This document shows, in pieces, positions 2,312 through 44,130 of a stretch of 55,910 nt of DNA; the stretch's first letter is position 1, and each line of letters starts with the position of its first letter. The notes beneath the pieces were generated by a model. It was not told where the DNA came from and did no database searches. It saw only the letters and a program-made list of their open reading frames with translations. This DNA is from a virus, in IMG/VR virus record IMGVR_UViG_3300043446_005140, positions 1 to 55,910 of that record. One strand, written 5' to 3'. Both the position numbers and the translations under genes were made by a program.

Positions 2312-2563
2312 ATGACAATCATCTGGACACAATCATCAACCATCGGACGTTGTCTTACAAGGTATTACGGCAAGGTTGTATGTACGCAACGCCCGACTCA
2401 TCGCCAGGTCGTAGAAAAAATCTCGGCCGGACAATACGGCCAAATCAGCATGGTGACCAAGTGGCACCCCGACGATGCGCCACCGGTCGTACTCGAGGGG
2501 CACCCAGAGCTGGGGCCGGTGTTCGTGTACGACTTTTACGCCGACAACGACTCGTCCGATTAG
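2312..2563 (+). CDS. Hypothetical 83-aa protein upstream of the methyltransferase
   Basis: This is an unrecognised small protein ending in an acidic tail (DFYADNDSSD). It stops 8 bases before the methyltransferase start, which suggests translational coupling. The C-terminal half, with TKWHPDDAPPVVLEGHPELG, reads like a folded domain, while the first 35 residues are less convincing, so the true start may be internal. No motif can be named. An overlapping longer frame from 2209 is the spurious N-terminal extension of the methyltransferase frame. Confidence 0.5.
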   Translation: MTIIWTQSSTIGRCLTRYYGKVVCTQRPTHRQVVEKISAGQYGQISMVTKWHPDDAPPVVLEGHPELGPVFVYDFYADNDSSD

Positions 2564-2571
2564 GGGCAACC

Positions 2572-3384
2572 ATGGTACGCATCATTCATGGCGACAATTT
2601 GCCCATTTTGCGTTCGCTTGAAGACGGGTCGTTTGACCTGATTTACATTGACCCGCCCTTTAATACGGGGCGAAGCCAAACGAGAACGCGCATCAAGACC
2701 GAGCGGGACGACGAAGGGGACCGGGTCGGCTTCCAAGGCCGGCGCTATAAGACCACCATTGTAGGTTCCAGCGCATACGCCGATACCTTTGACGACTACA
2801 TGGGGTTCTTGTTGCCTCGTTTGCAGCAAGCACATCGCCTACTTGCTGACAACGGCAGTCTATTTGTGCACTTGGACTACCGGGAAGTGCATTATGCAAA
2901 GGTGGCGTTGGACGGCATATTTGGTCGTCCCAGCTTCATCAACGAAATCATCTGGGCCTATGATTATGGGGCCAGAGCTACCCGACGATGGTCGCCGAAG
3001 CACGATACAATTCTTTGGTATGCGAAAGACCCAAAGAATTACTGCTTCAATTACGACGAGATTGATCGCATCCCGTACATGGCCCCGTCCCTGGTTGGTG
3101 CCGAAAAAGCGGCACGCGGCAAGACCCCGACGGATACCTGGTGGCACACCATCGTAAGTCCCAACGGCAAGGAAAAGACGGGGTACCCCACCCAAAAGCC
3201 ACTCGGAGTCATGACCAGGATCGTCCGCGTTCATTCCAACCCGGGTGGTCGTCTACTGGATTTTTTTGCCGGTAGCGGTTCCTTTGGCGAAGCGGCTGCG
3301 ATCAATGGTCGTGACGTGACGTTGATTGACGAATCTCCCGAAGCTATCCAGGTTATGAATCGTCGACTGGTGTCGTATCTGTAG
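2572..3384 (+). CDS. DNA methyltransferase, beta class (N6-adenine or N4-cytosine)
   Basis: This 270-aa enzyme transfers a methyl group from S-adenosylmethionine to a DNA amino group. The catalytic DPPF motif is at residues 27-30, followed by NTG, and the cofactor-binding LDFFAGSGS lies near residue 230. That order (catalytic motif first) is typical of the beta class. The GYPTQKP segment before the cofactor motif is also family-typical. The frame is open upstream, but the GTRGAPRAGAG-rich extension is unlike protein, so the ATG at 2572 is preferred. No restriction enzyme is nearby, so it probably protects phage DNA or regulates genes. Its 3' end overlaps the convergent gene at 3353 by 32 bases. 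Confidence 0.9.
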   Translation: MVRIIHGDNLPILRSLEDGSFDLIYIDPPFNTGRSQTRTRIKTERDDEGDRVGFQGRRYKTTIVGSSAYADTFDDYMGFLLPRLQQAHRLLADNGSLFVHLDYREVHYAKVALDGIFGRPSFINEIIWAYDYGARATRRWSPKHDTILWYAKDPKNYCFNYDEIDRIPYMAPSLVGAEKAARGKTPTDTWWHTIVSPNGKEKTGYPTQKPLGVMTRIVRVHSNPGGRLLDFFAGSGSFGEAAAINGRDVTLIDESPEAIQVMNRRLVSYL

Positions 3385-4204
3385 CCGTCGTTACCAGCAC
3401 CTGGTCGGGGGTTGCCTTGGGGCGACCTCTATTTCGAGGCGTCATCGTCGGGTCCGAGAACTTGGTCTCGAGTATCCGTTGTTCGGCGACCATTACGGCC
3501 TCTGACGCGGCATCCTTGGCGCCCCCGTTGGCTCGTATTGCAGCCGCCGCCGCACGGACAATTGCTTCCTCCAGCTCGTCGTTACTTAGCTTGGCCAAGT
3601 CTTGAATGGCAATGGGGCCACCGTTTGGTCCACTGAGTTCGGTTTTCGATGTAATCAAACCCGCGATATCGGCCACCGTACGTACCGCTGCAACGGCGGA
3701 TCGTCGGTCGCCGTTATCCAATGCGTCGTGGGCGATCACTTCCAGCAACGCCAAACACTTGGTGCGGACCTCTTCCCGGTCGCCGATTGCCCCCTGGACC
3801 CATCTCGAGGCTTCCGCCGACATGTGCTGGACGACGACGTAGCTGATCCCCCATGCGGCCGTCAAAGGCATCTGTAGGGCTGTTCTATATAGACCGTCGG
3901 TCATCAACTCGGCGATGAACGACACTCGTTCCTGGCGTGATACCTTGGTCAACGCCGTCTCGATAATCCACCACCGTTGACCGCCCGGCTTCAGCGATTC
4001 CACGTACGATCGTTTGGCCGGCATATCCATGTCACACCGCTTGTCCATCTTGCGCGTGTAATCGCGTTTGCGGTCATCGTATTCCTGATAACCGGCTACG
4101 CGATCTGCCAGGCCCTTTTTCAACTTTTCGATCTTTTTCGAGTCCACGCAGAATGGCCAACAAATTTTGTCTGGCGGACCGAATGAAACGGCCACGTATC
4201 CCAC
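3353..4204 (-). CDS. TerS-like protein (putative small terminase subunit)
   Basis: This is a 283-aa protein with a GTG start. The N-terminal third is Lys/Asp-rich, with a CWPFC pair. The middle is helical. The C-terminal part contains ELSGPNGGPI followed by LAKLSNDELEEAI, a combination I associate with the tails of phage small terminase subunits, which recognise packaging sites and load the large subunit. The end (RNRGRPKATPDQ) is basic and disordered. It is transcribed away from the late operon, which is unusual for terS, and it sits about 1.1 kb before the large terminase. Assignment rests on the C-terminal pattern and location only. Confidence 0.5.
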   Translation of the reverse strand: MGYVAVSFGPPDKICWPFCVDSKKIEKLKKGLADRVAGYQEYDDRKRDYTRKMDKRCDMDMPAKRSYVESLKPGGQRWWIIETALTKVSRQERVSFIAELMTDGLYRTALQMPLTAAWGISYVVVQHMSAEASRWVQGAIGDREEVRTKCLALLEVIAHDALDNGDRRSAVAAVRTVADIAGLITSKTELSGPNGGPIAIQDLAKLSNDELEEAIVRAAAAAIRANGGAKDAASEAVMVAEQRILETKFSDPTMTPRNRGRPKATPDQVLVTTATDTTPVDDS

Positions 4205-4256
4205 CTAAAGTTCGGCAATCGGTGGACGGCGATGATTGTATGAGCAAACTAGTGGA

Positions 4257-4574
4257 ATGTCAGATCATACCCGTTCAACGACCCACTACAGAAACTCGGC
4301 TAATGATGCTCGTGCGAATCGTGCACACAGGGCTGAACGTATCGGCTCCCAAGCTACCGGCCATCTGCTAGGTGGCAGCGATCCTGCGTGCGGGTACTGC
4401 GGATTGCGTGACCACGCACACCATTGTGAGACTTGTTGGGGTGGTGTGGCGCTGGCTGGCAAGTGCGAACGTTGCGACCCGGACACCATTCCGACCATGG
4501 CTGCTGCGGATCATTACACCGAATGGTCCGACTATACGGACCAGTGGGACCATAAACAAATGAGCGATCAATGA
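4257..4574 (+). CDS. Cys-rich zinc-binding small protein
   Basis: This is about 105 aa. The central part has three CxxC pairs (CGYC, CETC, CERC) with histidines between them, which should bind one or two zinc ions. An in-frame TTG lies 21 bases upstream. The ATG is preferred, with a weak AGTGG in front. Its stop overlaps the next start in an ATGA arrangement at 4571, so it belongs to the late operon. A role in DNA or RNA binding is possible but unproven. Confidence 0.65.
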   Translation: MSDHTRSTTHYRNSANDARANRAHRAERIGSQATGHLLGGSDPACGYCGLRDHAHHCETCWGGVALAGKCERCDPDTIPTMAAADHYTEWSDYTDQWDHKQMSDQ

Positions 4575-5005
4575 GTAACTTGATGGCGGTTCGCCCTGCT
4601 GTGGCGGACGACTTGGACTTGATCATTCACTCGTTTTTAATGGGGTTCTGGAACACCCCCGCCGTACGAGGGATGGACCGAGACCGTTATTTCGAGGTGG
4701 TGCGTCCCAGGTTCAAAGTCGCGTTGGGATCTGCCGATATGCGCGTGGTCGTGGCGTGTGCGGCTGACGATCCGTCGACGCTATTGGGATGGGCAGCGAC
4801 GCACAAAAACACGTTACTGTGGGCATACGTGCGTAAGCCAATGCGAGGTACGGGGGTATTACGTAGTATGTTGGCGGATCAACCCTGGCCAATTACCGGA
4901 TACGCGCTGACTGGGTTAGGATCGTCGCCACCCAAGCACATGGAATTTCGTCCTTGGGTTGCATGGTCCTTGTTTGCAATCGGTCCCATGGTGCCGGACC
5001 GCTGA
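4571..5005 (+). CDS. GNAT-like acetyltransferase-fold protein near the terminase
   Basis: This 144-aa protein has the layout of small GNAT-fold proteins often found beside phage terminases: an N-terminal RPAVADDLDLIIHSFLMG, then VVVACAADDPSTLLGWAA and a strand-loop YVRKPMRGTGVLRSML, which resembles the acetyl-CoA pyrophosphate loop. The usual Q/RxxGxG/A pattern is only partly kept (MRGTGV), so catalytic activity is uncertain. An ATG four codons downstream is an alternative start. Translationally coupled to the Cys-rich protein upstream. Confidence 0.6.
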   Translation: MSNLMAVRPAVADDLDLIIHSFLMGFWNTPAVRGMDRDRYFEVVRPRFKVALGSADMRVVVACAADDPSTLLGWAATHKNTLLWAYVRKPMRGTGVLRSMLADQPWPITGYALTGLGSSPPKHMEFRPWVAWSLFAIGPMVPDR

Positions 5006-5094: not shown

Positions 5095-5298
5095 ATGTCC
5101 TCCAGTATCCGAGCCGATGGCGGCGTCACGATTGACCGTCGTGGCGATACCGTGGTCGTTAAAGCTCCGGTTCCTGACAACACCATGCGTGGTCTACCGA
5201 CACACGTATGCCGTCATTACAACTGGAATGCCGTGACTTGGATCGAGTACGACTCCGATCCGGACGCCGTGGTTTCGGCGGATAAACGTGGGCGTTAA
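5095..5298 (+). CDS. Hypothetical 67-aa protein overlapping terL
   Basis: An unrecognised small protein, rich in Val and Asp at the N-terminus (GVTIDRRGDTVVVKAPVP) and ending DKRGR. The start chosen at 5095 has AGGCGG upstream; an in-frame ATG at 4954 would give 114 aa but runs through less protein-like sequence. The stop lies inside the start of the large terminase (11-base overlap), which suggests coupling of the two genes. Confidence 0.6.
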   Translation: MSSSIRADGGVTIDRRGDTVVVKAPVPDNTMRGLPTHVCRHYNWNAVTWIEYDSDPDAVVSADKRGR

Positions 5299-6907
5299 TC
5301 CGACTCCCGAAGAGTTCCAAGAACATTTACGTGCGCTGCTGGCTGAAAAGACACGGCGCAAAAAGACGTTTGATTCGCTCGAGGCGTTGTTGACGGACCC
5401 CAAGCTATTTGGGTTGACCACTGCGACGCCCGTCCAGCGTGCCATCTGCCGGATCGCCGATGGGGTTCCGCTTGGAGAGCTGCAAGATGATCCCGTGATC
5501 ATGGACGCCGTCGGCGATTGCACGCCCATCTCCGGAATACGACCACGTGAGCTGGCCATCTTGAGTGGGATCCGTGTCGGCAAATCGCTGATCGCCAGCC
5601 TGTTGGCAATCTATTGGACCCAAGTGTGCGATGTCTCCAAGCTGGGACCAGGTGAGATCCCGCGCATCTCGATTGTGTCGATCACACGCGACTTGGCCGA
5701 GGTTGTATTTGGGCACGTGCTGGGCCGCATTGCCGCATCCAAGGCACTTACGTCATTGGTCATTGGTAACCCAGCGGGGGAAACGATTACGTTGCGCCAT
5801 CCGACGGGCACGCCCGTTGAAATCTGCGTTGTGTCGGGCTCCAGGGCCGGTAGCTCGCTTGTGGCCCGTTGGAGCGCTGGATGCATCTTCGACGAGTTTC
5901 CGCGTATGCTGGGGGCAGATGAATCGGTCATCAATTGGGAAGATTCTCGTCGAGCCGTTCTTGAGCGAATCTTGCCGAATGCACAAATGGTGTCTATTGG
6001 TTCCCCTTGGGCACCGTATGGACCTGCGTTCGACGTGTACTCGAACCACTGGAGACATCCGTCTGCCGAAATGGTGGTTGTAAAGACGCCAGCGTGGAAT
6101 TTTAATCCTCATTTCTGGACGCCAGAACGGGTGGAAAAAGCCAAGGCAAACCCGGACATCTACCAGACCGACGTACTGGCGGAATTTGCCAACCCCGAGG
6201 AATCGTTGTTTGCGACGCACGAAGTCGATTCGTGTACGCGCCAGACAACAACGTCGCTGAAACCCAACCCAAACTTGGCGTATCGCGCTGCAATGGACCC
6301 TGCCACCCGAGGCAACGGCTGGACGCTGGTGATTGTCACTCGGCAAGGTGCACGCAAGATTGTGGCACACGTCGAAGAATGGCGTGGCTCCAAAGTCGAC
6401 CCCCTTAGCCCAAAGTGGGTTATGGGCGAGATATCCGCAATCTGCAAAGAGTACGGCATCACATCCATTGACACTGACATTTACATGGCCGATGCCATCA
6501 AGGACCTGGCCCGCGATGTGGGGATCCACTTGCGTCAGGTGTCACTCACGGACAGAGAACGGTCTCGACGATACATGTCCATCAAGGCCAAGATGGCCAT
6601 TGGTGAAATCGAGCTAAGTCCGGACCGTAAGTTTCGAAACGATCTATTGCAACTCAAGAAAAAGACCACCAGCAACGGGATCAAAGTGTATTTGCCGGCC
6701 ACGCCCGACGGCCGACATTGCGACTATGCGCCCAGCTTGATGTTGGCCATGGCTGGGTACTTGGAAGATGCCAAGACGGACGAGTTGGATCCCATGTCCG
6801 AGCAATCCCTTCAGGCGCAAGCTAACGAAATGCGCAACCAGCGCTACGAGCTGGTCAAGTCCCGATTCGAACGGCCAAACATTCATAACCGATGGAAACT
6901 AAAGTGA
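5288..6907 (+). CDS. Large terminase subunit (ATPase-nuclease)
   Basis: This 539-aa protein cuts concatemeric DNA and pumps it into the prohead. It has a GTG start overlapping the upstream gene. The Walker A variant SGIRVGKS has its lysine at residue 99. The Walker B segment CIFDEF has D202-E203. The C-terminal RNase-H-like nuclease begins around AAMDPATRG (D337), with a second acidic site in SIDTDIYMAD. Length is normal for the family. The downstream order (small gene, portal, scaffold, capsid) confirms the call. Confidence 0.9.
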   Translation: MGVNPTPEEFQEHLRALLAEKTRRKKTFDSLEALLTDPKLFGLTTATPVQRAICRIADGVPLGELQDDPVIMDAVGDCTPISGIRPRELAILSGIRVGKSLIASLLAIYWTQVCDVSKLGPGEIPRISIVSITRDLAEVVFGHVLGRIAASKALTSLVIGNPAGETITLRHPTGTPVEICVVSGSRAGSSLVARWSAGCIFDEFPRMLGADESVINWEDSRRAVLERILPNAQMVSIGSPWAPYGPAFDVYSNHWRHPSAEMVVVKTPAWNFNPHFWTPERVEKAKANPDIYQTDVLAEFANPEESLFATHEVDSCTRQTTTSLKPNPNLAYRAAMDPATRGNGWTLVIVTRQGARKIVAHVEEWRGSKVDPLSPKWVMGEISAICKEYGITSIDTDIYMADAIKDLARDVGIHLRQVSLTDRERSRRYMSIKAKMAIGEIELSPDRKFRNDLLQLKKKTTSNGIKVYLPATPDGRHCDYAPSLMLAMAGYLEDAKTDELDPMSEQSLQAQANEMRNQRYELVKSRFERPNIHNRWKLK

Positions 6908-7203: not shown

Positions 7204-9246
7204 GTGACCAAAGGACCCGTGAAGGATGTGCGGTGGTGGCGGTCGGAAACGCCCCACTCGGACGTGTTCGACATCGTTCGCGCCGTCTCCAATAAGACGC
7301 GAATCCGACGCGAGATGGACCTGTACCATGCGTGTCTGTACGACGATTCCGAGCTGACAGGCTTGGGACCATCGTCTTGGCAGGATCTGGAATACCAGCC
7401 GTCCAAGTTGGCGTTTAATGTTGTTCGTCAAACGGTCGACACATTATCCGCCAAAATTGCCAAAAACCAGCCGTTACCCATGCCGATCACATCGGGTGGT
7501 AACTACGGGCAACGCCGTCGGGCCGAAAAGATGGGCAAGGCCATCAAAGGCCAGTTTGAACTAAGTGGGGTGTGGCGCGCTAGTCCGACAATCGCTCGAG
7601 ATTGCGCGTTGTTCGGAACCGGGATTGCTCACAACTACAGGGTTGGCAAGACAATCTATCACGAACGTGTATTGCCGTGGGAGATCGTGGTTGACCCGCG
7701 TGATGCCATGTACGGCAAGCCACGCACGATGTATCTAAGGCGATGGGTAGACCGGTTCGTATTGGCGGAACGCTTTCCCGAGTTTCACGAATACATCATG
7801 ACGGCCGATGCCAAGGATATACACTCGTATGATCTTGGCTATGATGACACCAGCGATCTGGTGCTGGTGATCGAAGCGTGGCACTTGCCGTCCAAGTCAT
7901 TGGAAGATTCCGATCCGGATTACGAAAAGGACGCCCAGCCCGACGAGCACACGTACCACGACCAGCCTGCCCCGCGTATGGATCCCGATAACCCGGCCGA
8001 ATCGGACGGACCACAACGTCCTGCGCACGATGGTTGCCATTCGATCATGATCTCGAATGCAACGCTGATCAAAGAGCCGTGGCGAAGGCAATACTTTCCG
8101 TTTTCGGTTCTGCGTATGTCAGAGCCGTTGGTCGGATGGCACGGCACCGGTCTGGCGAAACAGCTAACGGGGTTGCAGTACACGATCAATGATACTGCCG
8201 CCGTCGTCCAGGAGGCGCATGCTCTTAGCGGTGGATACATCCTGGTTGAGTCCGGTTCCAATGTAGATACCGGAAAGCTGGATAATGGGCGCGGCACCAT
8301 CCTGAAGTACAACGGCACCCGTCCGGACTGGATCAACCCGCAACCGGTGCATCCTGACACGTGGAATTTCGTCTTGGGCTTGATTCCCAAGGCTTTCGAA
8401 ATGACGGGTGTCTCACAACTCAGTGCGCAATCCCAAAAACCGGCCGGGATCGAGTCGGCAATTGCTCTGAATACGTTCAACGACATTGAGACGGAACGTT
8501 TTGCATTGTTCGCCAAGCAATACGAAGAGTATCACATCGACGTTGCCTGGCAGTTTTTCGATCTGTGGGAAGAGATCGTCGAGGAATTTGGCAACGCTAC
8601 GATTCGTGTAAACTCCAAAGATCGTGGTCTGCGTTTCTTGTCCGACATTGACTACAGCGAGATCCGTATGGATCGACATGAATTTGTGCTGGACGTGTTC
8701 CCCACCAGCTTGCTGTCCAAGAAACCGGCCGCACGTATCCAAGAGCTTGAGAGCTTCATCAACGCGGGGTGGATCACGCGCGAAGATGCAATGATGTTGC
8801 TGGATATGCCGGATCTGGAACGTGCCGGCAATCTTGTCCTGAGTGCAACCAGGATCATCGAACAGATCGTTGATCGCATCCTGGATGCGCCGGATCCGTA
8901 TGCTGACGGCGTTTACACGTACCCAGAACCCGCGTTCAACCTGAAGTTGTGCATCGCCAAGGGGCTGCAAATGTACCTGGATGCCAAGCTGGACGGCGCT
9001 CCTGAGGAAAACTTGTTGCTGGTGATGCAGTTTATTGCAGACGCCAAAGAGCAACTCGAGATGTCTATGCAACCGCCCCCCGGTGAACAACCACCACCCG
9101 AGATGGGTATGCCGGCTGGCCCGCAAATGGGTGCCATGCCTATGGCGGATATCCCGCCCCCTCCTGGTGCGCCACCTGGCCCGCCTGGTTCGGACAACTT
9201 CGTTCCACCTTCACCGATGGACGAGTCACCACCACCTAGCTTGTAA
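7204..9246 (+). CDS. Portal protein
   Basis: This 680-aa protein forms the dodecameric DNA channel at the capsid vertex. It has a GTG start. The N-terminal and central parts show portal features: a region of conserved tryptophans and tyrosines, LPWEIVVDPRDAMYG (the residue-binding wing typical of P22/T7-like portals), and SAQSQKPAGIESAIALN in the crown-side region. The last 60 or so residues are strongly Pro/Gly/Met-rich (repeats of PPPG and MG), as in tails that contact scaffold or DNA. Position between terminase and scaffold and the length support the call. Confidence 0.85.
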   Translation: MTKGPVKDVRWWRSETPHSDVFDIVRAVSNKTRIRREMDLYHACLYDDSELTGLGPSSWQDLEYQPSKLAFNVVRQTVDTLSAKIAKNQPLPMPITSGGNYGQRRRAEKMGKAIKGQFELSGVWRASPTIARDCALFGTGIAHNYRVGKTIYHERVLPWEIVVDPRDAMYGKPRTMYLRRWVDRFVLAERFPEFHEYIMTADAKDIHSYDLGYDDTSDLVLVIEAWHLPSKSLEDSDPDYEKDAQPDEHTYHDQPAPRMDPDNPAESDGPQRPAHDGCHSIMISNATLIKEPWRRQYFPFSVLRMSEPLVGWHGTGLAKQLTGLQYTINDTAAVVQEAHALSGGYILVESGSNVDTGKLDNGRGTILKYNGTRPDWINPQPVHPDTWNFVLGLIPKAFEMTGVSQLSAQSQKPAGIESAIALNTFNDIETERFALFAKQYEEYHIDVAWQFFDLWEEIVEEFGNATIRVNSKDRGLRFLSDIDYSEIRMDRHEFVLDVFPTSLLSKKPAARIQELESFINAGWITREDAMMLLDMPDLERAGNLVLSATRIIEQIVDRILDAPDPYADGVYTYPEPAFNLKLCIAKGLQMYLDAKLDGAPEENLLLVMQFIADAKEQLEMSMQPPPGEQPPPEMGMPAGPQMGAMPMADIPPPPGAPPGPPGSDNFVPPSPMDESPPPSL

Positions 9247-10309: not shown

Positions 10310-11536
10310 ATGGCTGCTGCAAGTACGACAAATCTCGCATCTATTCTAAAGACTATTTGGCCGCAGTCCGATATCACGGACCTGTTTTATGACGACTCGC
10401 CTCTGTTTGCCATGCTCCCCAAGGACACCACCTGGGCTGGGCAAAACCGAGTTGTCGCCGTCCAATACGGACAGGTAAACGGTCGGTCTGCTTCGTATGA
10501 CAAGGCGCGAACCAACGCGGATCGCTCCAAGGTCGCCAGTATGACGGTCTCTACGTCTGACAATTATGCTGTGTGGCAAGTTGAGCACAAGTTGATGGTC
10601 CTGAGCCGCAACGACAAAGGCGCAATCGTTCGAGCCGTGGAACGTGAGACCAAGTCCGCAATGAAGAAATTTAAGCGGTCGTTGGCCTTCATGGTTTACG
10701 GAAACGGTGGCGGTGCGCTTGGGCAAATCGCGTCCAGCGCCACCAGCGGTTCCAATACCATTTACACCGTCAAAGACCCCCGCACCCTTCGGTACATCGA
10801 AGAGGGGGACGTGCTTGCCCTGAGTACGGCCGATGGCACGTCCGGTTCCTTGCGCTCCGGTACCATGACGGTCACCGGCGTTGACGTTGACGCGGGTACG
10901 TTCACGATTCTGACGGCCGGCGCAATCTCCGGTGCCGCCGCGAATGACTATATTTTTGTGGATGGTGACTTTGGCAAGGTTATGTACGGCCTAAATGCGT
11001 ACATCCCGACCAGCACGCCATCTACGTCGATCTGGGGCATGGCGCGTACGGCAAACCCCCAGCGTCTTGGCGGTATCCGGGTTGGTGGCAAAGGTCTGTT
11101 GATCCAGGAAGCTGTCAAAAAAGCCTTGGTGAAAGCTAAGGATGCGGGCGCCAGCGTGTCCCACATCTTTATGTCATCGAATGACTTTTTGAACCTGGAG
11201 TTGGCGCTTGGGACGACCGTCCGACGCACCGATGAAAAGGTTTCGGCCAATGTCGGCTTCACCGGCATCGAGTTCTCGTACGGCAGCTCCAAGCCCGTCA
11301 AGGTGTTCTTGGATCCGGACTGCCCTAGCGGGTTGGTCTATGGTCTACAAATGGATACGTGGACGCTGGCCAGCGCTGGCGAATACCCCGATTTCTTGAC
11401 CATGGATGGCAACAAATTCGACTTGCTGCAAAGCTCGTCCCTGACCTCGCCCACCTTCGAGGGACGCATCGGCGGCTATGCCCAGCTTTATACCGACGCG
11501 CCCGGCTTCAACTTCGTCCTGAATTTGAACGCTTGA
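10310..11536 (+). CDS. Major capsid protein
   Basis: This 408-aa protein is expected to adopt the HK97 fold and build the icosahedral shell. It lacks charge clusters and has the usual patterns: LFAMLPKDTTWAGQN near the start, an ERETKSAMKKFKRSLAFMVYG long spine-helix region, GDVLALST and VDVDAGTFTILTAG in the beta domain, and ENP-like end sequences VYGLQMDTWTLAS. It follows the scaffold and precedes small head genes, as expected. The ribosome site is weak (GGAT), which is odd for so abundant a product. Confidence 0.88.
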   Translation: MAAASTTNLASILKTIWPQSDITDLFYDDSPLFAMLPKDTTWAGQNRVVAVQYGQVNGRSASYDKARTNADRSKVASMTVSTSDNYAVWQVEHKLMVLSRNDKGAIVRAVERETKSAMKKFKRSLAFMVYGNGGGALGQIASSATSGSNTIYTVKDPRTLRYIEEGDVLALSTADGTSGSLRSGTMTVTGVDVDAGTFTILTAGAISGAAANDYIFVDGDFGKVMYGLNAYIPTSTPSTSIWGMARTANPQRLGGIRVGGKGLLIQEAVKKALVKAKDAGASVSHIFMSSNDFLNLELALGTTVRRTDEKVSANVGFTGIEFSYGSSKPVKVFLDPDCPSGLVYGLQMDTWTLASAGEYPDFLTMDGNKFDLLQSSSLTSPTFEGRIGGYAQLYTDAPGFNFVLNLNA

Positions 11537-36768: not shown

Positions 36769-37022
36769 CACTGCAATTTGTGTTTGCGGCGTTAACGATT
36801 GTCGCCATCGGTCACATTGTGTGGCTGATGGTTGGCACCCGGCATGTTCACAAATTGGCAACCGGAATGATTGCTACCGGCGCAGTGATGTACATCGCTC
36901 CGTCGCTTGGAATGCAGCCGCTGGTCGCCATCCTGGCCGGCAACATATGCGTACCTTTGCTGTATTTACTCGAGGTGAAACGTGAAAATTGTTCGCGCGT
37001 GGCAAACAAAAAACACGATTAG
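36765..37022 (+). CDS. Small membrane protein
   Basis: 85 aa with three hydrophobic segments (about 3-22, 34-52 and 55-69), predicted to be an inner-membrane protein with a basic tail (VKRENCSRVANKKHD). It overlaps the polymerase start by 41 bases, so the polymerase is probably translated from inside this frame. Function unknown. Confidence 0.6.
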   Translation: MTLQFVFAALTIVAIGHIVWLMVGTRHVHKLATGMIATGAVMYIAPSLGMQPLVAILAGNICVPLLYLLEVKRENCSRVANKKHD

Positions 37023-39261
37023 CGCACTGTATTTCGACGACAAGGGTACATTACGACTGAAGATGGCCACTGGGAAACCGGTGGCCTTTTTTGATGACGT
37101 TGTCCCCAAGGATCGTTTCCTGGATCAAAGGGTCGTTGGGCTGGAAAAGACAGGCCGTTATTGGCGAGCTACGTTTTCCAGCGGGCACTGGGACAAGGGA
37201 CGACGAGAGTTCGTTGATCACCGCGAGCAATTCTGCCGGGAGATGGTCTCCCAGGGGTTTGCGACATACGAGGGAGACGTGTCGGTTCTGAAACGATGGA
37301 TGATTGACAACAACATCCAGATCCAGCGTCCCCGTCGAGTGTACTTGGACATCGAAACCGATAGCAGGGTGCCATTCGTCGACGCCATTGCGGGCCACGC
37401 GCGCGTGTTGTGTTGGGCGCTGGTGGGACCGTCCGGTGAGCACGTTTCTGGCGTCTTGAAAGAGGATTCGGACGAAGCCGAATACCAGTTGCTGGAAAGC
37501 CTGGTGCATCACTTGGAAGAGTACGATCAGATCGTCGGCTGGAACTCGGACATGTTCGATAAGCCCGTTATCCTAGCGAGGATCGACCACTTGAAGGTAC
37601 CGGTCAAAGACATTCGTCGATGGCTTTGGCTGGATCAGCTTCAGGTATACAAGCGGTACAACATCTCGAGCGCGGAATCTGGCGAGGACAAGGTTTCGTT
37701 CAAGTTGGATCACGTCGCAACGATGTTGCTGGGCGAAGGCAAGCACGATGTGGATGCATCGCAATCCTATAGGTACTGGCAAGATCCAACTCTAAGGAGC
37801 ACACTTGTCAAATACTGCGTACAAGATACCGACTTGCTACGCCGTATCGAGGAAAAAACAGGTTACCTGGAGCTGCATCAAACTGTGTGCGAAGCGTGCG
37901 GAGTGCAACCCGATTCAGCCAGCCTGAAGCCGACCGTATTCGTCGATATGTTTATGTTGCGGCTTGGCCAAGCGAACGGCATCCGGTTCCCGACCAAGTT
38001 CTATGCGGACGAGCTTGAGAGTACCAAGTACACCGGGGCGTTCGTCATGCAGCCCACCGAAACTGGCATTATCGAGAACGTACACGTGTGCGATTTTGCA
38101 TCGCTGTACCCATCGGTGATGATCGCGTGGAATCTCAGTCCAGATGCGAAGTCACCTACGGGAACATGCACCAGCCCAGGCACGGGGTTGCGTACGGACG
38201 CAACCAAACCGGGCGTTATCTGTACTGCACTACAGGCGCTATTGGATTTGCGTGCCCATTGGAATCAGGTGCGTGCGTCTATGGCGCCCGGAACCCCCGA
38301 ATCCAAGGACGCTGAAAGGCGAACCAACGCATACAAGATGGTTGCCAACTCGTTCTACGGGGTCGTTGGAACCCCATATAGTCGGTACTATGATCGAGAC
38401 ATCGTAGAGTCAACCACGTTGAACGGGCAGTGGCTGCTGAAACAGACCGTGATGTTTGCTCGCCAGGTGATGCCTGCGTCCAAGACGATCTACGGAGACA
38501 CGGACTCGTTGTTTGTCACTGGCGCGTCTGTCCAAGAGTTCGATGCGTTCGTCAAACGCTGCAACGACGAGCTGTATCCGCGCCTGACGGCAGAATCAGG
38601 ATGTGCGGTCAACAAGGTCAAGCTGGCATACGAAAAGGCGTTTTCAAGATTGGTGTTTACCGCCGCAAAAAGGTATGTCGGAAAATACTTGCACTACAAG
38701 GGGAAGCCCGCCCGCCCGGACTCGAAACCAGAAGTCAAGGGGCTGGAAATCAAGCGAGGGGACACATCGCGCCTGGCCCGCGATTTACAAGGAACCATCA
38801 TCCAGATGTTTGCGACAGGTGAAACCACCGTTGACCCATATTTCATGGCCGTTGCAGAGTTTCGCCAGCACGTTTTGACTGACGACCTGCCGCTGGAAGT
38901 CATCCAGATTACCAAGGGCATTTCCAGGCCACTGGAAGAATACAAGTCATCCGGCAATGCACCCGTACACGTGCAGATCGCACGTTCGCAATTGGCCAAA
39001 GGCTTGCAGATAACGGCAGGCACCAAGATCAACTACGTCGTGCTCGACGGATCCTGTAGTCCGTTGGTGGCCATAGATGCCTCGGAATTTACTGGCGAGT
39101 TTGATCGGCATTACTTGTGGGAGACCATGGTTTGGCCACCGAATTTACGTCTATTGACGGCGATGTTTCCGCGATTCGATTGGAACTATTTCGACCGCTC
39201 GCGACCCTCGAAAAAGTACAACCCGTGTCAGGGGGATCTGTTCGGAGCGATTGCAAAATGA
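36982..39261 (+). CDS. Family B DNA polymerase
   Basis: 759 aa, GTG start. Exonuclease motifs are YLDIETDSR (D123, E125), VGWNSDMFD and YCVQDTDLL. Polymerase motif A is CDFASLYPS (D371), motif B is KMVANSFYG (K452), motif C is YGDTDS (D506, D508), followed by AAKRYVG. All catalytic residues are present, so it should be a proof-reading replicative polymerase. Length is near the phage family average. It heads a replication group with prim-pol behind it (4-base overlap). Confidence 0.95.
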   Translation: MKIVRAWQTKNTISALYFDDKGTLRLKMATGKPVAFFDDVVPKDRFLDQRVVGLEKTGRYWRATFSSGHWDKGRREFVDHREQFCREMVSQGFATYEGDVSVLKRWMIDNNIQIQRPRRVYLDIETDSRVPFVDAIAGHARVLCWALVGPSGEHVSGVLKEDSDEAEYQLLESLVHHLEEYDQIVGWNSDMFDKPVILARIDHLKVPVKDIRRWLWLDQLQVYKRYNISSAESGEDKVSFKLDHVATMLLGEGKHDVDASQSYRYWQDPTLRSTLVKYCVQDTDLLRRIEEKTGYLELHQTVCEACGVQPDSASLKPTVFVDMFMLRLGQANGIRFPTKFYADELESTKYTGAFVMQPTETGIIENVHVCDFASLYPSVMIAWNLSPDAKSPTGTCTSPGTGLRTDATKPGVICTALQALLDLRAHWNQVRASMAPGTPESKDAERRTNAYKMVANSFYGVVGTPYSRYYDRDIVESTTLNGQWLLKQTVMFARQVMPASKTIYGDTDSLFVTGASVQEFDAFVKRCNDELYPRLTAESGCAVNKVKLAYEKAFSRLVFTAAKRYVGKYLHYKGKPARPDSKPEVKGLEIKRGDTSRLARDLQGTIIQMFATGETTVDPYFMAVAEFRQHVLTDDLPLEVIQITKGISRPLEEYKSSGNAPVHVQIARSQLAKGLQITAGTKINYVVLDGSCSPLVAIDASEFTGEFDRHYLWETMVWPPNLRLLTAMFPRFDWNYFDRSRPSKKYNPCQGDLFGAIAK

Positions 39262-40055
39262 GCACACTGCAATCGGCATTGGAATATGCAGCGGCTGGTC
39301 TGGCGGTAATCCCGTTATGGCCCCATAGCAAACGGCCTATGACTAGGCGCGGTGTGCACGACGCCACGCACGACCCGGCCACGATCAAGGCGTGGTTTGC
39401 CGAATGCGCAACAGCAAATCTAGGGATTGCAACCGGCCCCATTAGTGGAATCTGGGTACTAGACGTAGACCCGAGAAACGGAGGCTGGTCCACATTGGCG
39501 GATCTGGAATTTACGCACGGCCCGCTAGAGGCGGCATGCGTGCAATCTACGGCCCAAGGCGGAGAGCACTATGTGTTCAAGCTGAGCGACAATCAAAAGT
39601 TGCGCAGCAAATTGGGCGATGGGATCGATCTACTAGGCGATAGCAGATATTTTGTCGCATTCCCCAGTGTGACACCCACCGGCACCTACAGATGGTTGAT
39701 GGGTCATCCGAGCGACACCGGTCCGGCACCGGAGTGGCTGAACGGATTGGTCGCACGTCCGGATGAATTGCCAGCCACGCCCGCAATGCCCCCTCGTCAA
39801 CCGTCCGCAATGGATATGACACGCATCCAACGTTACCTCGAGGCGATCCCGGGCGCAATCGCAGGCCAGGGGGGGCATGCACACACGTTTCTGGTGGCGT
39901 GCAAACTGGTGCACGGGTGGGGTTTGGACGACGACCTGGCAATGCAGGTGATGTCGGAATGGAACGCCAAATGTCAGCCGCCGTGGTCGCGGTGGGAGCT
40001 GGCCCGCAAAATCAAGTCCGCAAGGTCCACAGGCAAGTACAGGCGCTCACTATGA
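39258..40055 (+). CDS. Bifunctional primase-polymerase (prim-pol/AEP)
   Basis: 265 aa from the ATG at 39258, which overlaps the polymerase stop. The prim-pol core shows the catalytic DxD (VLDVDPRNGG), GGEHYVFKLS and GIDLLGDSRYFVAFPSVTPTG, the standard order of D4-type archaeo-eukaryotic primases. The C-terminal 80 residues resemble a PriCT-like helical cap (HTFLVACKLVHGWGLDDDLA). It makes primers for the family B polymerase; no helicase domain is fused, DnaB being separate. Confidence 0.88.
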   Translation: MSTLQSALEYAAAGLAVIPLWPHSKRPMTRRGVHDATHDPATIKAWFAECATANLGIATGPISGIWVLDVDPRNGGWSTLADLEFTHGPLEAACVQSTAQGGEHYVFKLSDNQKLRSKLGDGIDLLGDSRYFVAFPSVTPTGTYRWLMGHPSDTGPAPEWLNGLVARPDELPATPAMPPRQPSAMDMTRIQRYLEAIPGAIAGQGGHAHTFLVACKLVHGWGLDDDLAMQVMSEWNAKCQPPWSRWELARKIKSARSTGKYRRSL

Positions 40056-40063
40056 GGGAGAAT

Positions 40064-40861
40064 ATGGAACAACCTACGATATACGCAAAAATTATCGCCG
40101 ACTCGATAAACCTGACTGGGCAACGTCTAACGACCATAGAGGTACGTTACCCCCGATTCATTCATTCGGAGTTTATGACGCATCGAGCATTCTCGAGGAA
40201 TGCCGCATCAAGTCGGGCGATCCCGAACAACAAGCTGGTCTCCCAGGTACGAAACAATCCGGCAGAACCGATTGCGTGGGGGCGTAATCGCAGCGGAATG
40301 TCTGCCGACACGGAGCTGGACGACGAGATGATCGCCACGATTCGGCGTGAATGGCATGAGCTGGCCAGGCACACGGCAGACGTGGCCGAGCGATGGGCTG
40401 GGATGGGTTTGCACAAACAAGTTGTAAACCGCGTTCTTGAGCCTTTTTTGCCGATCACCGTGATCGTCACGGCAACTGAATGGAACAATTTCTTCGTGCA
40501 ACGCATCTCGACGCACGCCCAACCAGAAATAGAAAAGCTGGCGACAGAAATGAAATCGGCACTCGATGGGAATAAACCGGAGACGCTACGAGCCGCAGAA
40601 TGGCATACGCCATATGTGACCCCTGCGGAGATGGACCTACCGATTTTTCAAAGATGCAAAATATCCGTGGCGCGGTGCGCTCGGGTTTCGTACCTTAATC
40701 ATCAAGGTGTTCGTGACCTAGATGCAGATGTGAAACTTTATGAACGCCTATTAAGTGACGGGCATCACAGTCCGTTTGAACACGTAGCGACCCCCGTTCT
40801 CGGCAGGGTCGCCAACTTCGAGGGGTGGGGCAGCCTCCGAGCTTTAGTGTTGGGCCATTAA
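40064..40861 (+). CDS. thyX: FAD-dependent thymidylate synthase
   Basis: 265 aa. It methylates dUMP to dTMP with FAD and methylene-tetrahydrofolate. The signature THRAFSRNAASSRAIP replaces the classic RHRxxSxNExSxR, a variant frequent in phages; GHHSPFEHVATP supplies the C-terminal FAD and substrate site. The start at 40064 has GGGAG upstream. An alternative ATG at 40052 overlaps the preceding stop. It belongs with the reductase in making DNA precursors. Confidence 0.9.
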   Translation: MEQPTIYAKIIADSINLTGQRLTTIEVRYPRFIHSEFMTHRAFSRNAASSRAIPNNKLVSQVRNNPAEPIAWGRNRSGMSADTELDDEMIATIRREWHELARHTADVAERWAGMGLHKQVVNRVLEPFLPITVIVTATEWNNFFVQRISTHAQPEIEKLATEMKSALDGNKPETLRAAEWHTPYVTPAEMDLPIFQRCKISVARCARVSYLNHQGVRDLDADVKLYERLLSDGHHSPFEHVATPVLGRVANFEGWGSLRALVLGH

Positions 40862-40874
40862 CCTAGGGGTAGTT

Positions 40875-41096
40875 ATGAAAAAGCACTACTGGGCGGTAAA
40901 GTCAATCATGGGCTGCTGGTTAGTGGAGTCTACAACGCGTGAGGAAATGGGATTACCTGGGATCGATTGGGTGGATTTCAAACGCGGACGCAAGGTGTTC
41001 CGCGCCACGAGATGTGTAGCACGCAAGTTTTTGCGGTACGTCAATGCCGCAACCGTCGCCGAAGCAACACTAGTTAGGATCAAGAGGAAACGATGA
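40875..41096 (+). CDS. Hypothetical 73-aa basic protein
   Basis: A basic protein (pI clearly high) beginning KKHYWAVKSIMGCWLVEST and ending VRIKRKR. Such short basic proteins bind nucleic acid or partner proteins, but no motif is seen. GTTATG start after ATTAACCTAGGGGT. Overlaps the next gene in ATGA form. Confidence 0.6.
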   Translation: MKKHYWAVKSIMGCWLVESTTREEMGLPGIDWVDFKRGRKVFRATRCVARKFLRYVNAATVAEATLVRIKRKR

Positions 41097-41350
41097 ACGA
41101 ATTAACGGCCATGTGCGACACCATTTGCAGGCTGTACCGAGCGGACACGGGAGGGCAAGTCGAAGTTCGTGCGTCATACCAATTGGAGTCCAAGACATGG
41201 GTATTGAGCGTTGGTCGCTATTCGTCCAAGGGAGATACGGCCACGTCAGCTGCATCCGGTCTCATTGTGCAGTTGACCGAATCGGTCAAATCAAAGCGGC
41301 AATATCACACCCGCGAAATAGCCTCGTTGGACGAGGTGCTTGGACTTTGA
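41093..41350 (+). CDS. Hypothetical 85-aa protein
   Basis: Not recognised. A helix-strand-strand-helix layout is suggested by TAMCDTICRLYRADTGGQ, then SKTWVLSVGRYSSKG and SLDEVLGL. It ends the transcript segment before a strong terminator at 41387. Confidence 0.6.
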   Translation: MNELTAMCDTICRLYRADTGGQVEVRASYQLESKTWVLSVGRYSSKGDTATSAASGLIVQLTESVKSKRQYHTREIASLDEVLGL

Positions 41351-41386
41351 TGGCCTAGTTTTTTCCTGGAACAAGTAATCATTGAG

Positions 41387-41417
41387 ATCCGGTTGTCGTC
41401 AGGCAACCGGATTTTTT
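41387..41417 (+). terminator. Intrinsic terminator before the reductase gene
   Basis: A 9-bp perfect stem (ATCCGGTTG / CAACCGGAT), an 8-base loop, and a run of six T. It is the best classical terminator in the window and splits the early operon. The reductase then needs its own promoter or read-through; its ribosome site CCGGAGAG follows directly. Confidence 0.85.
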
Positions 41418-41445
41418 CGTCTGCATAATCAACACCGGAGAGATA

Positions 41446-43527
41446 ATGGACGTTTTTGCCGACAATCCCTTGGGACTCGAGATTTTCAAATTCAAGTATG
41501 CCGCGTCTGCCACCGAGACATGGGCGGAACGCGCCAAGTGTGTTGCCGACGCAGTGATCATGCCCGTCATCAATACCAACGACATGGGCATTTTGCGTGA
41601 CGCACATAATCATGTTGCCCAGATGATTGCAACGCACCAGTTTCTGCCAGGTGGACGATACTTGTATTACGCAGGTCGTTCCTACAAGGCGTACAACAAT
41701 TGCTATCTGCTGAGAGCCATAGAAGATACGCGCGAGGATTGGGCCGATCTAAGCTGGAAAGCGGAACGGTGCCTTAGCACGGGGGGCGGAATCGGAGTTG
41801 ATTACAGCGTGTACCGCGCACGTGGTGCGCGGCTGAATCGAACGGGCGGAGTTGCATCCGGTCCCATCTCCAAGATGCGTATGATCAACGAGATTGGTCG
41901 CGAAGTGATGCAAGGCGGCTCCAGGCGTTCTGCGATCTATGCGTCGCTGAACTGGCAACACCCCGACGCCGGTGACTTTTTGAAGGCCAAGAATTGGCGT
42001 GACATGCGCGTGCCCGGAACGGAACGCACGGTTGCCGATCTAAAAGAGGCTGATTTCAACTGGCCGGCACCGTTGGACATGACCAACATTAGCCTGAACT
42101 ACGACGACGCCTGGCTGGCGAATCGAATGCATCCAACGTTTGTCGAAAACGTACGCCAAGCGCTGAAGACGGGCGAGCCAGGGTTCTCGTTCAATTTCGG
42201 CGCAAAACAGAACGAAACACTGCGGAATGCACCTGTTTCGGCAGATACGTCGGTATTGACGGACATCGGGTACACTCGGATTGCGGATATCATTGACCAG
42301 CCGGTTACCGTATGGACTGGCAAGCAATGGGCGCAAACGGTGTTCAAGCAAACTTATCCGAGTGCTCCAATTGTTTCTATACACATGTCCAATGGTCGAC
42401 AAATCAAAGCTGACTACGGACATCCATTTCTAGTCAAGGTGGACGGGCAGCCTACGATTCGACTACAAGCGTGGCGACTGGCAAAGGGAGACGAGCTGGA
42501 AGTCAGTTTTCCACACGGAGATAACAATCCTTGTTATGTGACAGATGTCGTCTTCGAACAATTTGAAGAGCCTGTGTACTGCTGCGACGTACGTGTTCCG
42601 GAGCATACGTTCTGTGCAGACGGAGTCATCATCTCGAACTGCACCGAAGTGTCCAGCGAGGACGACAGTGACGTGTGCAACCTGGGTAGCATCAACCTGG
42701 GGAGAATAGACACGTTGCCCCAGTTTGCCGACGCGGTGCGAGCTGCCACGATCTTTTTGTTGTGTGGAACAATGGTTGCGGATTTGCCGTACGCCAAGGT
42801 CGACGAGATCCGACGCAAGAACCGCCGTCTTGGGCTTGGGTTGATGGGGGTGCACGAATGGCTGATACAGCGCGGATACCGTTACGAAATGAACAACGAG
42901 TTGCGGCAATGGCTACAAGTCTATCGAGACGTATCACGACAAACAGCGGACGAAGTGGCGGACGCACTGGGAATCTCCAGGCCGGTTGCGTGTCGTGCGA
43001 TTGCTCCGACGGGGACCATTGGGATCTTGGCCGGTACGACGACGGGTATCGAACCGCTGTATGCAGTCGCCTATAAGCGGCGGTACCTAAAGAACGGCAA
43101 GGACTGGATGTACCAGCTTGTGGTCGACTCAACTGCCAAAAGGGTGATCGAAAAATACGGAGTTGATCCGGAGTCCATCGAAAGTGCAATTGACCTGGCT
43201 CGAGATCCCGCACGTCGAATCGCATTCCAGGCGGACATCCAAGATTACGTCGACATGTCCATATCCAGCACGATCAATCTGCCGGCATGGGGCTCGCCCG
43301 AAAACAATCCCGATACGGTGCAATCCTTCGCCGAGACGTTGGCAACCTATGCGCCCAGGCTAAGGGGGTTTACTGCGTATCCCGACGGAGCGCGAGGTGG
43401 TCAGCCGTTGGTACGGGTCCCCTACGGAGAGGCATTGCAATCATACGGCCAGGAGTTCCAGGAAACGGTTGTCGAGTCGCATGACATTTGCGTCATCGGA
43501 GGCAAAGGAGGAGTGTGCGGCGTCTAG
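41446..43527 (+). CDS. nrdJ: Ribonucleotide reductase, class II-like, interrupted by an intein
   Basis: 693 aa in the precursor, 557 after splicing. It reduces ribonucleotides to deoxynucleotides. Key residues: Cys86 in YNNCYLL and Cys411 in DVCNLGSINL (redox pair), Asn261 and Cys399-Thr-Glu401 (N-x-C-x-E radical site), APTGTIGILAGTTTGIEP, and a C-terminal Cys-x8-Cys tail. No small (beta) subunit gene is in the window, so a cobalamin-dependent class II enzyme is likely. The intein lies between Ala262 and Cys399, directly before the radical cysteine. ATGG start after GGAGAG. Confidence 0.88.
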   Translation: MDVFADNPLGLEIFKFKYAASATETWAERAKCVADAVIMPVINTNDMGILRDAHNHVAQMIATHQFLPGGRYLYYAGRSYKAYNNCYLLRAIEDTREDWADLSWKAERCLSTGGGIGVDYSVYRARGARLNRTGGVASGPISKMRMINEIGREVMQGGSRRSAIYASLNWQHPDAGDFLKAKNWRDMRVPGTERTVADLKEADFNWPAPLDMTNISLNYDDAWLANRMHPTFVENVRQALKTGEPGFSFNFGAKQNETLRNAPVSADTSVLTDIGYTRIADIIDQPVTVWTGKQWAQTVFKQTYPSAPIVSIHMSNGRQIKADYGHPFLVKVDGQPTIRLQAWRLAKGDELEVSFPHGDNNPCYVTDVVFEQFEEPVYCCDVRVPEHTFCADGVIISNCTEVSSEDDSDVCNLGSINLGRIDTLPQFADAVRAATIFLLCGTMVADLPYAKVDEIRRKNRRLGLGLMGVHEWLIQRGYRYEMNNELRQWLQVYRDVSRQTADEVADALGISRPVACRAIAPTGTIGILAGTTTGIEPLYAVAYKRRYLKNGKDWMYQLVVDSTAKRVIEKYGVDPESIESAIDLARDPARRIAFQADIQDYVDMSISSTINLPAWGSPENNPDTVQSFAETLATYAPRLRGFTAYPDGARGGQPLVRVPYGEALQSYGQEFQETVVESHDICVIGGKGGVCGV
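42232..42639 (+). other. Mini-intein with N-terminal Pro and C-terminal Ser-Asn
   Basis: 136 aa (reductase residues 263-398), removing which restores the family sequence RNA-CTEVSSEDDSDVCNLGS. Block A is PVSADTSVLTD (canonical Cys1 replaced by Pro). Block B is GRQIKADYGHPFLV, with the usual Thr-x-x-His altered to Asp-x-x-His. Block F is VYCCDVRVPEHTF. Block G is VIISN before Cys+1, lacking the penultimate His. It is too short for a homing endonuclease. Two adjacent Cys in block F could supply the missing nucleophile. It is plausibly active because the radical site depends on it, but activity is not proven. Confidence 0.85.
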
Positions 43528-43563
43528 GGGTTTGATATCAGAATAGCGAATACGAAATAATCG

Positions 43564-43588
43564 GTGGCGTCGGTAATTCCGGCGCCAC
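43564..43588 (+). terminator. Hairpin after the reductase gene
   Basis: A 10-bp stem (GTGGCGTCGG / CCGGCGCCAC, one G-T pair) with a 5-base loop, without a long T run. Probably a weak terminator or a processing site between the reductase and the gene at 43610. Confidence 0.5.
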
Positions 43589-43609
43589 ATTCGTTTCAAC
43601 AGGTGCAAT

Positions 43610-43981
43610 ATGACCAAATTCAAACTGACAAATCCCGAATCTCCCAAGTCGAAAACCAAGTCAACCAAGTCGAAAAACCCGTTCGACGACAACGCACGGC
43701 AGGTTTTGGATTTGTGGCGAGACATGGCGACGCTGGCGCTGAATGGCAGAAAACCCACCGTTCGCCCGATGTACTACAAGGCAGCGTGCACCTTGGCGGC
43801 TGGATTTCCGCTACCGGAAGCGCTGGACATAGTCCGGAATGCATTCCGGGATGCGTGGTGGGTAAAGACCGGCATGAACCTACAGTATCTCGCATGTAAC
43901 CCAGACCGATTCCGGGCCTCGGGGACCGTCAGCCCGCCCTCCCAGTACCAGTACGGCGACGCACCCACGTTTGAATGGTGA
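43610..43981 (+). CDS. Hypothetical 123-aa protein, Lys/Ser-rich N-terminus
   Basis: The first 28 residues are Lys/Ser/Pro repeats (SPKSKTKSTKSKNPF), disordered and basic, followed by a compact helical domain with ARQVLDLWRDMATLAL and YYKAACTLAAGFPLPEAL. It lies just before the AT-rich island that may be the origin, so a DNA-binding role at the origin is a reasonable guess. Not recognised. Confidence 0.55.
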   Translation: MTKFKLTNPESPKSKTKSTKSKNPFDDNARQVLDLWRDMATLALNGRKPTVRPMYYKAACTLAAGFPLPEALDIVRNAFRDAWWVKTGMNLQYLACNPDRFRASGTVSPPSQYQYGDAPTFEW

Positions 43982-44130
43982 TTGCTGGCGCGGGAATGGC
44001 CCTAGATGGAATCTTTGGCACCCTATGGCGGCACCTCTAGCCAACGGCCCCAAAAACTCCATTACTGGGCCTCTCCTGCGAGGCAAACGGCTACTTGCAA
44101 TAATCTCGGGCAAATTGGGGGGAGACGGGG

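Follow-up and report, generated by a model that had tools for sequence, protein, structure and literature searches.

The reductase gene and its insert

The window analyzed here, a stretch of 55,910 nucleotides comprising positions 1 to 55,910 of IMG/VR virus record IMGVR_UViG_3300043446_005140, carries an open reading frame for the large subunit of a ribonucleotide reductase (Table 1). TIGR02504 (NrdJ) was the best NCBIfam model for this protein, though the match fell under the equivalog cut-off. Neither the window record nor any of 11 further intein-bearing viral records, all of them possibly incomplete, yielded a gene for the small subunit (NrdB, PF00268); this absence fits a class II reductase. 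Judging by the genes around the reductase, the record is that of a tailed phage. These genes comprise weak terminase and portal matches, a major head protein, a DNA polymerase, a ThyX-like thymidylate synthase, and a DnaB helicase.

Table 1. Coordinates of the features in the window. Fractions refer to the 28 inteins of the Pro1 family.
Feature	Position	Strand	Basis or family distribution
Phage-marker genes (kinds named in the text)	5288-6904, 7204-9243, 10310-11533, 36982-39258, 40022-40858, 45387-46628
Gene for the phage ribonucleotide reductase precursor (693 aa; large subunit, class II/NrdJ-like)	41446-43527	+	ORF; PF02867, E 1.7e-46; TIGR02504, E 9.4e-62
N-extein, last residues ETLRNA (Ala-1)	41446-42231	+	Alignment with intein-free L005 and L006 ends at 42231
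Pro1 mini-intein, 136 aa, predicted Hint fold, without endonuclease domain	42232-42639	+	Exact insertion relative to L005/L006; AlphaFold2 and Foldseek; 27 further same-site Pro1 homologues
Pro1 (A:1), no side-chain nucleophile	42232-42234	+	28/28
Asp61 (B:7)	42412-42414	+	Asp 22, Glu 4, Ser 2 of 28
His64 (B:10)	42421-42423	+	28/28
Phe66 (B:12), Trp at the class 3 position	42427-42429	+	28/28
Cys117 (F:4), proposed initiating nucleophile	42580-42582	+	28/28
Cys118 (F:5)	42583-42585	+	Cys 17/28, Ala 11/28
Asp119 (F:6)	42586-42588	+	28/28; not Asp in Cys1 relatives
His125 (F:13)	42604-42606	+	28/28
Ser135-Asn136 (G:6, G:7), Ser in place of the usual penultimate His, Asn for the proposed cyclization	42634-42639	+
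C-extein, first residues CTEVSS	42640-43524	+	Alignment with intein-free L005 and L006 restarts at 42640
Cys+1 (Cys399), putative C-extein nucleophile and reductase radical cysteine	42640-42642	+	Alignment to PDB 1xjk Cys322

The precursor reads ...ETLRNA, PVSADTSVL...VYCCDVRVPEHTFCADGVIISN, CTEVSS..., so that residues 263 to 398 lie in frame between Ala262 and Cys399 of the reductase. Two near-identical viral contigs, L005 and L006, contain the same gene minus exactly these 408 bases. The alignments of the window to both contigs break between 42231 and 42640, and the subject bases are adjacent at that point. At the DNA level, L006 is 89.5% identical to the window in the left flank and 98.0% in the right. 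These empty sites fix both junctions and hence Pro1 and Asn136. A different N-terminal boundary, with a nucleophile further up- or downstream, was rejected on the same grounds. The earlier note, made from the sequence alone, had placed a mini-intein beginning with Pro at precisely this interval, and both parts of that reading stand. As a separate observation, the right flank (42640-44000) is closer to L005 than the left (41001-42231), with identities of 98.5% and 95.0%, respectively, a possible trace of recombination at the insertion site.

Standard intein models matched the window intein under their cut-offs (PF14890, 22.5 versus 35.8 bits; TIGR01445, 22.1 versus 24.5). Structural prediction, which the earlier note had named as a check, was run with AlphaFold2 on a 25-sequence family alignment and gave a confident model (pLDDT 91.1, pTM 0.84) in which the insert is predicted to adopt the Hint (intein) fold. 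The best PDB matches identified by Foldseek (TM 0.65 to 0.78, E values down to 3.5e-7) were solved class 1, 2, and 3 inteins, such as Ssp DnaB, NrdJ-1, NpuDnaB, Msm DnaBi1, and KlbA. A non-Hint fold for residues 263 to 398 was ruled out on the basis of this model and these matches. Precise in-frame insertion relative to intein-free alleles, together with the predicted Hint fold, supports the assignment of the insert as an intein. The model of an endonuclease-bearing relative, L097 (pLDDT 91.4, pTM 0.90), matched complete intein-endonuclease structures, for example, TliVMA and PI-PfuI.

In an alignment to the B12-dependent reductase of PDB 1xjk/1xje, Cys399 falls on Cys322, within the C-x-E motif, which bears out the earlier claim that the insertion lies directly before the radical cysteine. 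Judging from the sequence, the reductase should be active only after removal of the intein, because the insert splits the N-x-C-x-E motif just before its radical Cys. Comparison of the window with L005 yielded dN/dS values of 0.022 in the C-extein and 0.25 in the N-extein. These low values relative to an intein-free allele indicate that the exteins beside the window intein are still under purifying selection. On each intein-bearing record, which may be a fragment, a single gene, uninterrupted by stops, accounted for the reductase domain matches. In another contig, L024 (positions 2394-4886), the reductase frame is interrupted at the radical-Cys region: it ends in ...ETLRNALTFSSALH and a stop, and the C-terminal part begins with EYGVNKNGTEVTS. 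This break looks as if a further insert were present there, such as an intron or a decayed intein.

A family of Pro1 inteins at the radical cysteine

Profile searches of IMG/VR, in line with the suggestion that other Pro1 members be sought, identified 28 distinct inteins at the same reductase site, including the window copy, with a mean pairwise identity of 0.49. All 28 start with Pro, which is encoded by three codons (CCT in 9, CCA in 10, and CCG in 9). That 28 distinct homologous inserts at one site share Pro1 excludes chance, and an assembly error or a one-off mutation of Cys1 was likewise rejected. Seven of them are mini-inteins of 134 to 162 aa, and the other 21 carry an inserted endonuclease region. 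This region was lost on several branches of the tree (at least three changes), and the mini forms retain every splicing residue. For a close pair, L117 and L120, dN/dS across the whole intein was 0.066. Within its group, the window intein sits on the longest branch (1.18) and, given this, could be weaker than its relatives.

Motif scans of genome contigs detected no Pro1 members in bacterial genomes, and none was found in a scan of plasmids. Among 50,697 records of named phages, we obtained distant matches only, and those examined carry Cys1. In the literature we found no report of Pro1 inteins; an unrecognized earlier listing is possible among the 1701 class 3 inteins in the supplementary tables of PMC7891396. 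The same reductase family also has a second, upstream site (after ...NN|C), occupied in L009, L018, L040, L067, and L133 by Cys1 inteins with endonuclease regions. Some of the upstream-site inteins end in Gln, and L133 holds both such an intein and a Pro1 intein.

For comparison, we used 18 Cys1 inteins, namely, 16 phage inteins from GenBank at the homologous site and two from IMG/VR (L017 and L142). Cys1, TxxH, and Cys F:4 were present in all 18. The residues that the earlier note had singled out in the window copy could all be placed. Block B reads D-Y-G-H, with Asp61 where Thr would be expected, and B:7 is acidic in 26 of the 28 Pro1 inteins compared to Thr in 18/18 of the Cys1 relatives. 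Block F contains the two cysteines C117-C118. The intein ends in Ser135-Asn136, the penultimate His being absent; across the family, G:6 is Ser in 27/28 and Ala in 1/28, G:7 is Asn in 28/28, and the +1 residue is always Cys. Position G:5 is Ile134 in the window (Ile in 21, Val in 6, and Leu in 1 family member), and with Phe at B:12 throughout, the family lacks the WCT triplet, as the note had reported of the class 3 Trp and Thr. Because block F and G motifs were part of the IMG/VR search patterns, conservation at F:4 to F:6 and G:5 to G:7 is partly ascertained; Pro1, B:7, B:10, and B:12 were outside the patterns, and their conservation is free of this effect. We know of no counterpart to the invariant Pro1 and Asp F:6 in the described intein classes.

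With Pro at residue 1 in 28/28, the family departs from class 1, which has Cys, Ser, or Thr there. It departs from class 2 (KlbA host, Ala1, Thr B:7, Asp F:4) in its reductase host, Pro1, Asp/Glu/Ser at B:7, and Cys at F:4. The working definition of class 3 in PMC7891396, a residue 1 without a nucleophile together with Cys F:4, describes it. Whether the Pro1 family belongs to class 3 hinges on the definition chosen.

Candidate routes of splicing

The residue pattern suggests that the window insert is probably a splicing mini-intein of a phage lineage with invariant Pro1, lodged in a B12-type reductase directly before its radical Cys, in which Cys F:4 initiates class 3-like chemistry without WCT. 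We infer splicing itself, as well as its initiation by Cys117. The evidence best supports a block F Cys as the initiator, with the first of the two (F:4, C117) as the candidate. Since F:5 is Ala in 11/28, the second Cys is not required in the family, and Cys118 was rejected as its nucleophile. As the first step, His64 (B:10), aided by Asp61 (B:7), would distort the tertiary amide between Ala(-1) and Pro1. Cys117 would attack this amide, generating a branched thioester at block F, and the N-extein would be transferred to Cys+1. With His125 and Ser135 assisting, Asn136 would cyclize; N-A-C-T-E would then be restored by an S-to-N acyl shift, and only now would the reductase become active.

Inteins without a nucleophile at residue 1 use one of two known routes, attack by Cys F:4 (class 3) or attack by Cys+1 (class 2) (PMC4031507; PMC5222942). 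In many class 3 inteins, the Asp of DxxH reportedly lies near residue 1 and was proposed to bring the scissile bond into place for the Cys of block F (PMC6195587), and Cys F:4 is located within reach of both junctions (PMC7891396). Class 2 splicing reportedly requires Thr B:7 and Asp F:4 together with His B:10 (PMC4031507). The combination of Cys F:4 with an acidic B:7, in the absence of the class 2 Thr B:7 and Asp F:4, favors the block F route. In the AceL NrdHF intein, Trp is non-essential and the penultimate His is dispensable, while Thr is helpful but not essential, with T144A about tenfold slower (PMC7891396); this tolerance makes class 3 chemistry without WCT plausible. On the other side, Cys F:4 also occurs in all 18 Cys1 relatives, so its conservation alone is no proof of a role as nucleophile. 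Moreover, grafting WCT onto a class 1 intein resulted in no productive splicing (PMC7664689), implying that compensating changes are hard, which counts against initiation from block F alongside the absent Trp B:12 and Thr G:5.

Pro1 and Asp F:6 may contribute to the reaction by straining the prolyl amide and by acid-base action. A stronger version of this idea is a new mode of activation, in which a strained Ala-Pro tertiary amide (such as one whose prolyl bond is twisted or cis) is the key and Asp119 and the acidic B:7 take the roles of WCT, giving the family its own mechanistic class. We consider this possible but unlikely. It agrees with the absolute invariance of Pro1, compared to Ala, Ser, or Gly at residue 1 in the class 3 sample, with an Asp F:6 that is both invariant and family-specific, and with the importance of N-scissile bond distortion in one class 3 intein, where A1G kills splicing (PMC7891396). 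However, Pro1 could be conserved merely for packing or through a single recent origin. If Cys117 remains the nucleophile, this mode overlaps with initiation from block F. A class 3-like first step being compatible with a special role of Pro1, our estimates for the preferred reading and its rivals overlap and do not sum to one. Only tentatively do we raise the full evolutionary form of the idea, in which same-site Cys1 inteins gave rise, a second time and independently, to inteins that do without the N-terminal nucleophile, with the strained Ala-Pro amide catalytic and family-specific Asp residues in place of the WCT network.

Alternatively, the family could be an ordinary WCT class 3 member that drifted at Trp and Thr. 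It fits the working definition given above, carries DxxH in block B, and would not be without precedent, as Thr is replaced in 4.6% of class 3 inteins and Trp in 6.1% (PMC7891396). Yet all 28 members depart from class 3 at Trp, at Thr, and at the penultimate His. We also compared profiles of the splicing domain, using a class 3 sample of six (the Gaia TerL intein and five relatives; L156 was left out, as its alignment lacks Cys F:4 and its starting residue differs). The Pro1 profile matched that of the Cys1 reductase inteins with an E value of 3.1e-30 (score 165), versus 1.1e-11 (score 63) for class 3. By profile score, the Pro1 family thus appears nearer to the same-site Cys1 phage reductase inteins than to class 3. 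In a maximum-likelihood tree with ten active-site columns removed, the 28 Pro1 inteins grouped together (92/93) and the six class 3 inteins formed a separate, well-supported group (100/99). The AU test, with only 6 class 3 sequences, did not reject a joint clade of Pro1 and class 3 inteins (p-AU 0.36). Given this value, descent of the Pro1 lineage from same-site Cys1 phage reductase inteins, independently of WCT class 3, is likely but not proven. We judge the drift from class 3 unlikely, and the link to phage DnaB class 3 inteins implied by the earlier note found no support as kinship.

The main rival to initiation by Cys117 is a class 2-like route, with a direct attack of Cys+1 on the Ala-Pro bond and only an assisting role for Cys117. 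KlbA inteins likewise lack a nucleophile at residue 1 and have Ser G:6 and Cys+1 (PMC4031507), and the Pro1 family shares Ser G:6 (27/28) and Cys+1 (28/28). The route nevertheless seems rather improbable to us, as it needs Thr B:7 and Asp F:4 in addition to His B:10, positions held by Asp, Glu, or Ser and by Cys in the family, and every known class 2 intein is a KlbA orthologue (PMC4031507). Finally, poor splicing (cleavage only, or a dead insert), with the phage depending on the host reductase, is very unlikely: a prophage is known to carry a dead, class 3-like pseudogene intein (PMC3196547) and the window copy has the long branch described above, but all catalytic positions, fold, and open frame are retained across the 28 members, and the extein beside the window intein is under purifying selection.

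Comparison with known inteins

The Pro1 inteins are a conserved phage family and a new variant among inteins lacking an N-terminal nucleophile, probably with an unusual splicing route. The family supplies mini-inteins of 134 to 162 aa that leave a junction cysteine and do without the class 3 Trp and Thr. Since the window member falls under the cut-offs of current intein models, more may be overlooked. Homologous genes carry Pro1 or Cys1 inteins at one and the same residue, and L017 is a Cys1 intein in the same gene family as the Pro1 set; the presence of both kinds in one gene family makes the transition testable by swapping few residues.

Cys1 inteins with the same insertion point occur in Vibrio phage 1.193.O, Proteus phage PM135, Rheinheimera Barba phages, and Escherichia phage SelmaRatti, as well as in L017. 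In common with the Pro1 family, they have the Hint domain, an endonuclease region in most cases, Cys F:4, and no penultimate His. They differ in having Cys1, TxxH, often Thr G:5, and Gly G:6, whereas the Pro1 family has Pro1, D/ExxH, mostly Ile or Val at G:5, Ser G:6, and Asp F:6. Several phage Cys1 radical-site inteins (L085, L088, L142, L144, L150, and others) combine Cys F:4 with Thr G:5 and Trp or Phe at B:12. In these, which have Cys1 plus a WCT-like triplet, either Cys could serve as the first nucleophile.

Class 3 inteins (WCT; DnaB, TerL, Snf2) resemble the Pro1 family in needing no N-terminal nucleophile and in Cys F:4, His B:10, the terminal Asn, and the common DxxH. In the Pro1 family, Trp B:12 is replaced by Phe, Thr G:5 by Ile, Val, or Leu, His G:6 by Ser, and the usual Ser/Thr+1 by Cys. 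The split class 3 intein AceL NrdHF (PMC7891396) likewise has a reductase host and uses class 3 chemistry with a deviating triplet (MCT); unlike the Pro1 family, it is split, has Ala1 and Ser+1, retains Thr G:5, and lacks His F:13. The class 2 KlbA inteins share with the Pro1 family a non-nucleophilic residue 1, Ser G:6, and Cys+1, but they have Ala1, Thr B:7, and Asp F:4 and are confined to KlbA (PMC4031507).
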